NCBI RefSeq assembly: GCF_018599185.1
Contig: NZ_JAHFVL010000001.1
Coordinates: forward strand, 496,001 to 560,000
Source of the DNA: Rhodanobacter sp. LX-99
Lineage (GTDB): Bacteria > Pseudomonadota > Gammaproteobacteria > Xanthomonadales > Rhodanobacteraceae
Direction of reading: 5' to 3'
DNA: 64,000 nt
Shown: piece after piece, positions 36,282 through 39,848 of the stretch
Position numbering within the stretch: position 1 is the first letter of the stretch
Layout: every line of letters starts with the position of its first letter
The notes under the pieces: generated by a model
Told to the model about the DNA's origin: nothing
The model's database searches: none
The model's input: the letters and a program-made list of their open reading frames with translations, nothing else
Translations under genes and position numbers: made by a program

Positions 36282-39200
36282 ATGACCAGTCCGATCAAGC
36301 ACCCGCCCCTGCCGACCACCCCCAAGCAACGCCGCTACTGGACGCCGCCACACGGTTCCGGCCGGGCGCTGCTGCTCGCCGAGGCGGCGCGCACGCACGA
36401 GGGCCTGCTGGTGGTGGTGGCGCGCGACACCCAGCGCGCGCAGGCGCTGGAGTCCGAACTGAAGATCTTCGCCGGCGGCCTGCCGGTGCTGCATTTCCCG
36501 GACTGGGAAACCCTGCCCTACGACGCGTTCAGCCCGCACCCGGAGATCGTCTCGCAGCGCATCGCCACGCTGTACCAGCTGCCGAACGTGAAGCGCGGCG
36601 TGCTGGTGGTGCCGGTGGCCACGCTGATGCAGCGGATCGCGCCGCGTTCGCACATCACCGGCTCCGGGCTGGTGCTGGCGAAACGGCAGAAGCTGGATCT
36701 CGCCAGCGAACAGCGCCGGCTGGAAGCATCCGGCTACCGCAACGTGCCGCAGGTGGCCGAACCGGGCGACTTCGCGGTACGCGGCGCATTGCTGGACATC
36801 TTCCCGATGGGCACGGCCGAGCCGTACCGCATCGAGCTGTTCGACGACGAAGTGGAGTCGATCCGCAGCTTCGACCCGGAAACCCAGCGCTCGCAGCAGC
36901 AGGTGGACCGGGTCGAGCTGCTGCCCGCGCGCGAGTTTCCGCTCACCGACGAAGCGGCGAAGGAGTTCCGCGGCAACCTGCGCGAGCGCTTCCCGATCGA
37001 CGTGCGCCGCTGCCCGCTGTACCAGGACATGAAGGAAGGTGTGACGCCCGGCGGCATCGAGTACTACCTGCCACTGTTCTTCCCCCAGACGGCAACCTTG
37101 TTTGATTACCTCGCCGACGATGCGCTGTTCGTGCTCGGCGAAGGCGCCGGCGAAGCGGCCGACCAGTTCTGGGCGCAGACCGCCGAACGCTACGACCAGC
37201 GTGCGCATGACATCGAACGCCCGGTACTGCCTCCGGCCGAACTCTATCTGCCGCCGGAACAGTTGCGCGAGCGGCTCAACAAGCGGCTGCGCGTGGAGGT
37301 GGTCGATCCAGGCCACGAGCACGCCGTCGACACCGGCACCCAGCCGGCGCCGGAGTTGCCGCTCAATCGCAAGGGCGAGGAGCTGGGCACGTCGCTGCGG
37401 CATTTCCTGGCCAGCTATCCGGGCCGGGTGTTGATCGCCGCGGATTCGGCGGGGCGGCGCGAAGCATTGATCGAGACGCTGGCGAGTGCGGGACTGAAGC
37501 CCGAGCACGTCGAAAACTGGGCAGCTTTTCTTGTTCGTCATCCCAGCGAAAACTGGGATCCCGCGACTCTGGACGCCCAAAAGGCACTGGATGACCAGCA
37601 TTCGCTGTTGAAGAGCTCTTCCGGCTTTCGCCGGAATGACGAAAAAAACCTTCCACGCTTCGTCATCACCATCGCCCCGCTCGAACAAGGTTTTGCGCTG
37701 ACCAAACCCGCGATCACCGTGCTCACCGAGCGCGAGCTGTACGGCGAACGGGTGCGCAGCGAGCGCGACCGCAAGCGCCGCCGCGGCACCGCGCGCGACC
37801 CCGAAGCGATCATCCGCGACCTCACCGAGCTCACCCCCGGCGCGCCGATCGTGCACGTCGACCACGGCGTGGGCCGCTACCAGGGCCTGGTGTCGATGGA
37901 CGTGGGCGGCATGGACGGCGAGTTCCTCACCATCGAGTACGCCAAGGGCGACAAGCTGTACGTGCCGGTGGCGCAGCTGGGCCTGGTCAGCCGCTACTCC
38001 GGCACCGCGCCGGAGCTGGCGCCGCTGCATTCGCTGGGCGGCGACGCGTGGGAGCGCGCGCGCCGCAAGGCCGCCGAGAAGGTGCGCGACGTCGCCGCCG
38101 AGCTGCTGGCGATCTACGCGCAGCGCCAGGCCCGCGGCGGCGAATCGCTGCCGATCGATCGCCAGCTGGTGGAAGAGTTCGGCAGCACTTTCCCGTTCGA
38201 GGAAACTCCCGACCAGGAAAGCGCGATCGAGGCGGTGCTGAACGATCTTGCCGCAGCGCGCGCGATGGACCGGGTGATCTGCGGCGACGTCGGCTTCGGC
38301 AAGACCGAGGTGGCGCTGCGCGCCGCGTTCGCCACCGCCACCGCCGGCAAGCAGGTCGCCGTGCTGGTGCCGACCACCCTGCTCGCCCAGCAGCACTACC
38401 GCAATTTCGCCGACCGTTTCGCCGACTGGCCGGTGCGCGTGGACGTGCTGTCGCGCTTCAAGTCGACCAAGGAAGTGAACGAGGCGCTGAAGCGCCTCGC
38501 CGACGGCCAGATCGACGTGATCGTAGGCACGCACAAGCTGTTGCAGCCGGACGTCAAGTTCAAGAACCTCGGCCTGGTCATCGTCGACGAGGAGCAGCGC
38601 TTCGGCGTGCGCCAGAAGGAACAGCTGAAGAAGCTGCGCGCCGAGGTCGACCTGCTGACGATGACCGCCACACCGATCCCGCGCACGCTGAACATGGCGA
38701 TGGCCGGCCTGCGCGACCTGTCGCTGATCGCCACGCCGCCGGCGCACCGCAGCGCCGTGCGCACCTTCATCTCGGCGTGGGACCCGGCGACGATCCGCGA
38801 GGCGCTGCAGCGCGAGCTGTCGCGCGGCGGCCAGGTGTACTTCCTGCACAACGAGGTGCAGAGCATCGAACGTACCGTGCGCGAGCTGGAGGAACTGGTG
38901 CCGGACGCGCGCATCCGCATCGCCCACGGCCAGATGCCGGAGCGCGAACTGGAAGGCGTGATGGCGGACTTCCACCGCCAGCGCTTCAACGTGCTGGTGT
39001 GCACCACCATCATCGAAACCGGCATCGACATCCCCACCGCCAACACCATCATCATCGACCGCGCCGACCGCTTCGGCCTCGCGCAACTGCACCAGCTGCG
39101 CGGCCGCGTGGGGCGCTCGCACCACCGCGCGTATGCATACCTGGTGGTGCCCGACCGCCGCTCGATCACCGCGGACGCGCAGAAGCGGCTGGAAGCCCTC

Positions 39201-39848
39201 GCCTCGCTGGAAGAACTCGGCGCCGGCTTCACCCTGGCCACGCACGACCTGGAGATCCGCGGCGCCGGCGAGCTGCTCGGCGACGAGCAGTCCGGCCAGA
39301 TCCAGGAGATCGGCTTCGGCCTGTACACCGAATTGCTGGACCGCGCGGTGCGCGCGCTGAAGTCGGGCAAGGTGCCGGACTTCGACCTCAGCAGCGAGCA
39401 CGAAACCGAAGTCGAGCTGCACCTGCCCGCGCTGATCCCCGACGACTACCTGCCTGACGTGCACGCACGCCTCACCCTGTACAAGCGCATCGCCAGCGCA
39501 CGCAGCGAGGACGACCTGCGCGACCTGCAGGTGGAGATGATCGACCGCTTCGGCCTGCTGCCCGGTCCGACCAAGCAGCTGTTCGCCGTGGCCAGCCTGA
39601 AACTGATGGCCACCCCGCTCGGCATCCGCAAGCTCGACTTCGACGCGAACGGCGGCCGCATCGTGTTCCGCGAGAAGCCCGAGGTGAACCCGATGACCAT
39701 CATCCAGCTGATCCAGCGCCAGCCGCGCGTGTACAAGCTGGACGGCCAGGACAAGCTGAAGGTGATCCTCGACCTGCCCGGTGCCAGCGAGCGCATCCGC
39801 AGCGCGCAGGAACTGCTGGTGACGCTGGGCGCGCGCCGGCCTGGGTGA
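36282..39848 (+). CDS. mfd: Transcription-repair coupling factor Mfd
   Basis: 1188 residues. The UvrB-like N-terminal module (LPDWETLPYDAFSPHPEIVSQR), the RNA-polymerase-interacting domain (APIVHVDHGVGRYQGL) and the RecG-like translocase are present: Walker A GDVGFGKTE near residue 666, DEEQRFGV and MTATPIPRTL. The TRG region (ITTGIDIPTANT-like, here TIIETGIDIPTANTIII) and the C-terminal D7 domain follow. Mfd removes stalled RNA polymerase and recruits UvrA for transcription-coupled repair. The protein is about 35 residues longer than usual. The excess lies at residues 419-454 and is encoded by a palindromic intergenic-type repeat inserted in frame (annotated separately). Confidence 0.97.
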   Translation: MTSPIKHPPLPTTPKQRRYWTPPHGSGRALLLAEAARTHEGLLVVVARDTQRAQALESELKIFAGGLPVLHFPDWETLPYDAFSPHPEIVSQRIATLYQLPNVKRGVLVVPVATLMQRIAPRSHITGSGLVLAKRQKLDLASEQRRLEASGYRNVPQVAEPGDFAVRGALLDIFPMGTAEPYRIELFDDEVESIRSFDPETQRSQQQVDRVELLPAREFPLTDEAAKEFRGNLRERFPIDVRRCPLYQDMKEGVTPGGIEYYLPLFFPQTATLFDYLADDALFVLGEGAGEAADQFWAQTAERYDQRAHDIERPVLPPAELYLPPEQLRERLNKRLRVEVVDPGHEHAVDTGTQPAPELPLNRKGEELGTSLRHFLASYPGRVLIAADSAGRREALIETLASAGLKPEHVENWAAFLVRHPSENWDPATLDAQKALDDQHSLLKSSSGFRRNDEKNLPRFVITIAPLEQGFALTKPAITVLTERELYGERVRSERDRKRRRGTARDPEAIIRDLTELTPGAPIVHVDHGVGRYQGLVSMDVGGMDGEFLTIEYAKGDKLYVPVAQLGLVSRYSGTAPELAPLHSLGGDAWERARRKAAEKVRDVAAELLAIYAQRQARGGESLPIDRQLVEEFGSTFPFEETPDQESAIEAVLNDLAAARAMDRVICGDVGFGKTEVALRAAFATATAGKQVAVLVPTTLLAQQHYRNFADRFADWPVRVDVLSRFKSTKEVNEALKRLADGQIDVIVGTHKLLQPDVKFKNLGLVIVDEEQRFGVRQKEQLKKLRAEVDLLTMTATPIPRTLNMAMAGLRDLSLIATPPAHRSAVRTFISAWDPATIREALQRELSRGGQVYFLHNEVQSIERTVRELEELVPDARIRIAHGQMPERELEGVMADFHRQRFNVLVCTTIIETGIDIPTANTIIIDRADRFGLAQLHQLRGRVGRSHHRAYAYLVVPDRRSITADAQKRLEALASLEELGAGFTLATHDLEIRGAGELLGDEQSGQIQEIGFGLYTELLDRAVRALKSGKVPDFDLSSEHETEVELHLPALIPDDYLPDVHARLTLYKRIASARSEDDLRDLQVEMIDRFGLLPGPTKQLFAVASLKLMATPLGIRKLDFDANGGRIVFREKPEVNPMTIIQLIQRQPRVYKLDGQDKLKVILDLPGASERIRSAQELLVTLGARRPG
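37536..37641 (+). repeat. Palindromic intergenic-type repeat inserted in frame within mfd
   Basis: 106 bp. The left end reads CGTCATCCCAGCGAAAACTG and the reverse complement of the right end reads CGTCATTCCGGCGAAAGCCG, so the termini are near-identical inverted repeats with the CGTCATyCCrGCGAAA motif common between genes in xanthomonads. The inner part holds CTGGATGACC and AAGAGCTCTT. It starts exactly at a codon boundary (codon 419) and reads as RHPSENWDPATLDAQ... with no stop. The flanking residues (WAAFLV before, RFVITIAPLEQGF after) resume the normal Mfd sequence. Confidence 0.85.

Follow-up and report, generated by a model that had tools for sequence, protein, structure and literature searches.

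A probable loop in domain D3 of Mfd as a recurrent landing site for unrelated palindromic repeats in Rhodanobacteraceae

How does a palindromic repeat of a kind found mainly between genes come to be read as protein inside mfd, the gene of the transcription-repair coupling factor? The question arose from a window of 64,000 nucleotides of Rhodanobacter sp. LX-99 (positions 496,001 to 560,000 of contig NZ_JAHFVL010000001.1), which is the whole stretch of DNA that was analysed. Its source genome measures 3.83 Mb, and its nearest named relatives by Mfd are Rhodanobacter. A first-pass annotation had described a 106-bp element with near-identical inverted ends, starting at codon 419 of mfd and read in frame without a stop. 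Both points were borne out: the two end motifs match CGTCATYCCRGCGAAA exactly at 37536-37641, and the mfd frame (36282..39848, + strand) is stop-free over all its 1188 codons. The first base of codon 419 is at 37536 and that of codon 454 at 37641. The features of the locus are distributed as follows:

36282..39848, + strand: mfd (transcription-repair coupling factor), intact ORF of 1188 aa (ORF, phmmer, Pfam)
37404..37532, + strand: first stretch of Pfam MFD_D3, residues 375-417, corresponding to profile positions 1-43 of 73; the profile is split in two here
37518..37535, + strand: left border of the site, codons W413-V418; an alignment of 13 sequences shows no change at the W and F of the W..F motif
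37536..37641, + strand: CGTC-type REP dimer, in frame, 106 bp, codons 419-454 (sequence, BLAST, alignment)
37536..37561, + strand: 5' REP unit, with CGTC tag, GAAA loop and a stem of 7/8 pairs (pairs by eye)
37562..37615, + strand: dimer spacer; similar spacer at two other loci of the same genome (L002, L003) and in mfd of Rhodanobacter sp. B04
37616..37641, - strand: 3' REP unit, inverted, with CGTC tag, GAAA loop and a stem of 7/8 pairs (pairs by eye)
37653..37670, + strand: right border of the site, codons P458-T463 (PRFVIT); here D3 becomes conserved again (phmmer, alignment)

Conserved Mfd sequence lies on both sides of the element, as the annotation had it. Aligned with phmmer to E. coli Mfd (2eyq), query residues 10-410 correspond to 12-415 and residues 458-1177 to 425-1140; because the alignment breaks between them, most of residues 410-458 are extra with respect to the E. 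coli protein. The Mfd domains are all present (UvrB_inter, MFD_D3 in two parts, RID, DEAD, Helicase_C and TRCF in Pfam). The suggested alignment with relatives was also carried out and identifies the residues as an insertion: four relatives (L072, L075, L077, L079) have 4 residues between the anchors, compared to 40 in the window, and the closest mfd genes (L072 and L189, flank DNA distance 0.08-0.09) have a 4-residue loop at the site. The residues are absent in E. coli Mfd and in close relatives alike, and the net gain over an empty site is about 36 residues. As RNA, positions 37530-37650 fold better than 199/200 shuffles (z -3.46), and a slightly different stretch around the element gave z -2.2 with 60 shuffles. 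A Rfam scan returned two weak matches, both far under gathering scores, and a plasmid collection contained no match. The Xanthomonas sRNA sX14 matched 37513-37636 on the - strand at 20.5 bits (gathering score 80), perhaps through shared hairpin sequence only.

We then considered the identity of the repeat. CGTC REPs are described as palindromes with a CGTC tag at one end, a stem of 8-9 bp, a loop of 4-5 nt and a tail that is mostly CCA; they are multi-copy, mostly intergenic, often arranged in opposite pairs, and have no dedicated transposase (account in PMC3733652). The mfd element carries CGTCAT at both outer ends and, judged by eye, each of its units forms 7 of 8 stem pairs, with one mismatch, closed by a GAAA loop; its tails, also read by eye, are CCC and AG. 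Since the account in PMC3733652 gives CCA for 'most' tails, membership is possible despite the tails. The genome does hold further copies: a BLAST search found 24 matches, including the mfd copy and partial pieces (for example 89% over 62 bp and 76% over 115 bp), and the end motif with up to two mismatches occurs 52 times, against 0 in a reversed control. Many of these 52 form opposite-orientation pairs less than 120 bp apart, and the spacer type of the mfd dimer recurs at two other places. Within the window the end motif has 4 matches for 0.16 expected, a number reached in 0/100 shuffles. PF01797 (Y1_Tnp; RAYT-type gene), the only transposase profile searched, has 0 matches in this genome, while the same search was positive in 5/14 control genomes. 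The insert is thus best described as fitting an inverted pair of CGTC-tagged palindromes of the CGTC REP superfamily, from which it departs in its tails and in a single mismatched pair per stem.

The end motif had been said to be common between genes, and this agrees with a screen of the 52 end motifs for an open frame whose GC3 exceeds 0.85 on each side of the motif, an indirect screen that detects open in-frame insertions and is blind to frame-breaking ones. Only mfd passed, apart from one 2-mismatch match in GC-rich sequence that was taken as chance. Five more element places found by BLAST in this genome showed no open high-GC3 frame. In genome G116, 30/55 element matches were screened and mfd alone was flagged; in genome G007, 30/152 were screened and three flagged, none of which held up on composition and Pfam. 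Ten borderline intragenic ORFs of these two genomes were submitted to Pfam and rejected, 8 being domain-free and 2 having the element upstream of the domain. The annotation further proposed that a mobile repeat had landed in a loop and been kept as coding sequence. Landing in a loop, the loop being deduced from the alignment, and retention as coding sequence are supported by the data; present-day mobility is not, with 0 Y1_Tnp matches in the element's own genome.

To what extent is the site filled in other genomes? The census covers 130 readable genomes out of 147 sampled from the family (Rhodanobacteraceae by named members), 17/147 being left out for contig ends, lack of a match or coordinates not listed. 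A recognisable repeat occupies the D3 site in 29/130 genomes, a loop of 3-8 residues is present in 99/130, and 2/130 belong to neither class. The 29 repeats are labelled as follows: CGTC in 11, CTCTCCC hairpins in 10, CCTCCCC hairpins in 7 and GTAG in 1. Labels were given by regular expression and then by hand, one locus of 8 residues (L078) being counted by eye as a shrunken repeat. Counted by hand, the repeats make 17 genus-by-label combinations and are found in 11/26 genera of the family. GTAG elements are at the site in three Rhodanobacter (C01, C03 and UBA5168), and GTAGGAGCGGC inserts with the GTAG tag were read at L062, L188, L190 and L194. Among 80 named loci, 41 of which have the same site sequence as a census locus, 22 have repeats, 53 are empty and 5 are unlabelled. 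This point of Mfd D3 is therefore a recurrent landing site in Rhodanobacteraceae for at least three unrelated kinds of repeat; we count three and not four because the two C/T-rich labels may be related. The largest of the first family's loci that were read is that of Frateuria sp. Soil773 (L083 / L203), with 71 residues between the anchors and several CGTCATCCCGGC-like units in a row.

An order-wide search revealed a second family, with a split or long D3 match in 14/58 rows (hand count). Of these 14 genomes, chosen for that very split or long match, 12 have repeat-labelled inserts (2 CGTC, 10 CTTCTCCC-type) and the other 2 are unlabelled. The CTTCTCCC-type label was given by resemblance to what we take to be intergenic repeats, L280, L281 and L283 being weak cases. 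C/T-rich pattern counts in this family are 1 in G263, 4 in G295 and 5 in G339 for controls of 3, 3 and 0, and 117 in G188 for a control of 3. At the level of the class, the MFD_D3 profile matches 210/229 genomes, with one match in 203 and two in 7: G000 and G188, which are insert-bearing, and G382, G437, G568, G569 and G601. Among the matches listed, which are the higher-scoring ones whereas inserts would score lower, spans are 204-246 bp and no long insert appears. Restriction of the inserts to this order is likely, judging from these profile matches. The same peptides were found elsewhere in Mfd proteins only (2 matches among 16 candidates, counting the window's own, and 1/1), which is weak evidence as the peptide search requires shared exact words and similar length. 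One locus labelled Candidatus Eremiobacteraeota (L261, CAJCJD010000148.1) has a Rhodanobacteraceae-like mfd and is probably a binning error.

The three kinds of repeat are multi-copy. The CGTC pattern is present in 123/147 family genomes (control 0), the GTAG pattern in 19/40 genomes of the genus at 1-104 copies (control 0-2; counted whatever the state of mfd), and C/T-rich palindromes in 27/28 chosen genomes at 1-165 copies (control 0-3). Copy number as sole cause was nevertheless rejected: 4/5 genomes with more than 330 CGTC matches are empty at the site (G113, G125, G134 and G066, with 331-415 matches), the fifth (G009, 440 matches) being insert-bearing. The site is also empty in G105 and G126, which contain 75 and 49 C/T-rich palindromes. 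Since these six repeat-rich genomes are empty, repeat supply is not decisive.

The distribution of inserts along the protein was analyzed on 121 Mfd sequences longer than 900 aa, a set that contains duplicates and preselected loci. Most of them stop at about residue 1040, and the analysis covers the protein up to there. Inserts of at least 8 residues occur at residue 422 in 60/121 sequences and at residues 267-269 in 18/121, all others being at residue 4 or at the start. Within the part covered, a single other internal point of Mfd thus varies much in length. It corresponds to 37080-37085 of the window (residues 267-268, with no insert here) and has 9-19 extra residues in the 18 sequences, among them L058, L062, L065, L066, L210 and L225. 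The DNA of L058 at this second site holds the palindrome CCGCACATGGATGTGCGG, possibly from another repeat family.

Could a faulty assembly or a misread frame account for these inserts? Contigs of three drafts do end at or near the Mfd site (G018 at L074 and L155, G085 at L170, G114 at L144), as repeats are expected to cause. The frame is nonetheless open across the insert in every readable insert-bearing locus, the inserts lie within large contigs from many projects, and those of L188 and L190 are similar yet distinct; an artefact is extremely improbable.

A second possibility is that insertions were few, and that inheritance, loss or recombination between strains did the rest. State changes were counted on FastTree trees of mfd alone (about 260 flank residues), with 9 unlabelled loci left out. 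With all labels, 175 tips require at least 37 changes on the protein tree and at least 36 on the DNA tree; insert versus empty requires 20 and 18 respectively. These counts do not separate gain, loss and transfer, and the two C/T-rich labels may be related families, both of which leave room for a small number of insertions. So do the CCTCCCC and CTTCTCCC inserts, whose junctions are unchanged in several genomes, the 2 changes that CTTCTCCC requires for 10 tips, and the spacer sequence common to the window and Rhodanobacter sp. B04. Against this, the CGTC, GTAG and C/T-rich sequences differ from one another, the genus-by-label combinations number 17, and the closest relatives of the window have an empty site with a short loop. 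We consider such a history unlikely.

The same changes could be produced by insertion targeting, the DNA at this point being a preferred target for whatever copies or moves several kinds of repeat, and so being struck far more frequently than the rest. The presence of different kinds at one and the same point of Mfd, the many state changes and the mixture found in the 16 nearest relatives (DNA distance up to 12.7%), where CGTC, GTAG, CCTCCCC, CTCTCCC and empty states are all present, agree with targeting, as does the start of the CCTCCCC elements, which in the majority of their lineages is immediately preceded by TTTCT(C) or a closely similar sequence. However, targeting would require unrelated repeats to share a target, the own genome of the window's element has no Y1_Tnp match, and the left offset is not constant among the CGTC inserts, differing by multiples of three in 14/16. 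These steps of three point to selection on frame. Targeting is in our opinion an unlikely explanation.

The frame deserves attention in its own right. By our reading, one 5' frame is common to 14/16 CGTC inserts, of which two have degenerate motifs, and one 3' frame to all 15/15 that have the end motif. When 36 generic dimers were read on both strands, the three frames were open in 37, 31 and 44 of 72; the alternative frame is thus open more often than the one used (44/72 vs 37/72), and is nearly as hydrophilic. A single preferred frame counts against mere tolerance, because tolerance alone does not predict it.

Selection on the protein was estimated on 14 insert-bearing pairs. dN/dS is 0.00-0.26 in the flanks and 0.39-0.95 in the inserts (32-58 codons), some pairs possibly comparing independent insertions; the left flank reaches 0.26 in insert-bearing pairs vs 0.04 and 0.07 in two empty pairs. 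The Mfd flanks are under strong purifying selection and the inserts drift. RNA folding gives z of -2 or lower in 39/52 labelled inserts long enough to fold, the others being shrunken or decayed. In short, mfd stays open with constrained flanks, while the inserts change faster and some of them shrink.

Taken together, these results make it probable that D3 of this lineage offers a tolerant loop, invaded in frame again and again while Mfd went on working. Repeats would enter many places, and those inside genes would persist only if open, in frame and able to hang off the protein surface as an added stretch. In the window, a CGTC REP dimer would have entered in frame between the W..F and RF.IT segments of D3. 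The added stretches, mostly hydrophilic or rich in Pro and Gly, would form a disordered surface loop, as suggested by the alignment and the Pfam profile; once lengthened, such a loop would accept replacement of one repeat by another. In all likelihood the insert is carried as a tolerated passenger, with at most a weakly modulating effect, in what appears to be a working Mfd, as the flank dN/dS of 0.00-0.26 indirectly suggests. Two observations speak against pure tolerance: the empty sites of repeat-rich genomes and the one preferred frame.

An effect of the insert on Mfd activity is possible in view of what is reported of the domains concerned. The D1-D3 module is described as undergoing large rotations during Mfd loading (PMC7864632), and D1-D3 is said to regulate translocation (PMC7835731). 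Inserts in D3 might then tune loading or autoinhibition, and hence repair or mutation rate, with repeats supplying the alleles. That many intragenic REPs lie in replication and repair genes, with mutator effects proposed (PMC3733652), is in favour of such selection for an altered Mfd, and so is the fact that mfd was the sole interrupted gene in the screens of the window's genome (52 matches) and of G116 (30/55). The insert dN/dS of 0.39-0.95 with decay of some inserts, and the 99/130 family genomes free of insert, argue in the opposite direction, and we hold this selection to be quite unlikely. We give equally little credit to its more specific form, in which the D3 loop would be a reused docking point because inserts alter the swing or release of D1-D3 during loading. 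If true, repeats would furnish interchangeable regulators of transcription-coupled repair and of the supply of mutations, which the bacteria would acquire, exchange and lose within short spans of evolution.

The tolerant loop has partial precedents. CGTC and GTAG REPs have been described in frame in replication and repair genes, with the same tags and dimer form as in mfd, and in recB of X. campestris and X. oryzae they occupy about the same site (account in PMC3733652). Why intragenic REPs are so often in DNA-repair genes was a question raised in 2013 by Di Nocera, De Gregorio and Rocco (PMC3733652). Unlike the cases described there, the Mfd loop has received several unrelated kinds across many genera, among them C/T-rich hairpins that belong to neither superfamily. 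The main text of that paper, the supplementary gene list aside, has 0 occurrences of 'mfd', 'Rhodanobacter' or 'coupling factor', and a search of the literature on intragenic palindromic repeats, on RPE and mfd and on Rhodanobacter REPs found no report of the Mfd site among the papers covered. Intragenic in-frame REPs in repair genes were therefore already known; the Mfd case adds one loop that takes unrelated repeat families.

The comparison with Rickettsia palindromic elements (RPE), made by the annotation, turned out to be closer than an analogy, RPE-6 and RPE-4 of R. conorii being assigned to the CGTC superfamily (account in PMC3733652). Like the mfd insert, RPEs are palindromic repeats that conserved genes have retained as part of their coding sequence. 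R. conorii is credited with 44 RPE insertions, nearly half of them in ORFs, and in many unrelated genes (account in PMC10969869), in contrast to one gene and one loop here: the mfd insert is a palindromic repeat that a conserved protein gene reads in frame, whereas insertions in many genes were not seen, mfd alone of the 52 matches passing the GC3 screen apart from the chance-like one. Neisseria dRS3 equals CGTC-1 in the account of PMC3733652 and would thus be the same type of repeat. The GTAG tag of the GTAGGAGCGGC inserts is common to the RAYT-linked GTAG REPs (REPtrons) of the same account; in contrast to REPtrons, neither the GTAGGAGCGGC pattern nor Y1_Tnp has a match in the genome of the window (0 for each).

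As this site shows, intergenic repeat DNA can be turned repeatedly into protein sequence. One gene and one loop provide dozens of natural alleles, either empty, filled by various repeats, or shrunken, and thereby a naturally occurring experiment on how proteins put up with, or make use of, DNA that invades their genes. The question of REPs in repair genes is directly testable here because sister species supply matched Mfd with and without inserts. Genome G007, whose site is the same as that of Fulvimonas soli (L192), also has a CGTC element (G007:C3:99520-99545) a few hundred bases upstream of its insert-bearing mfd, the gene start being estimated.
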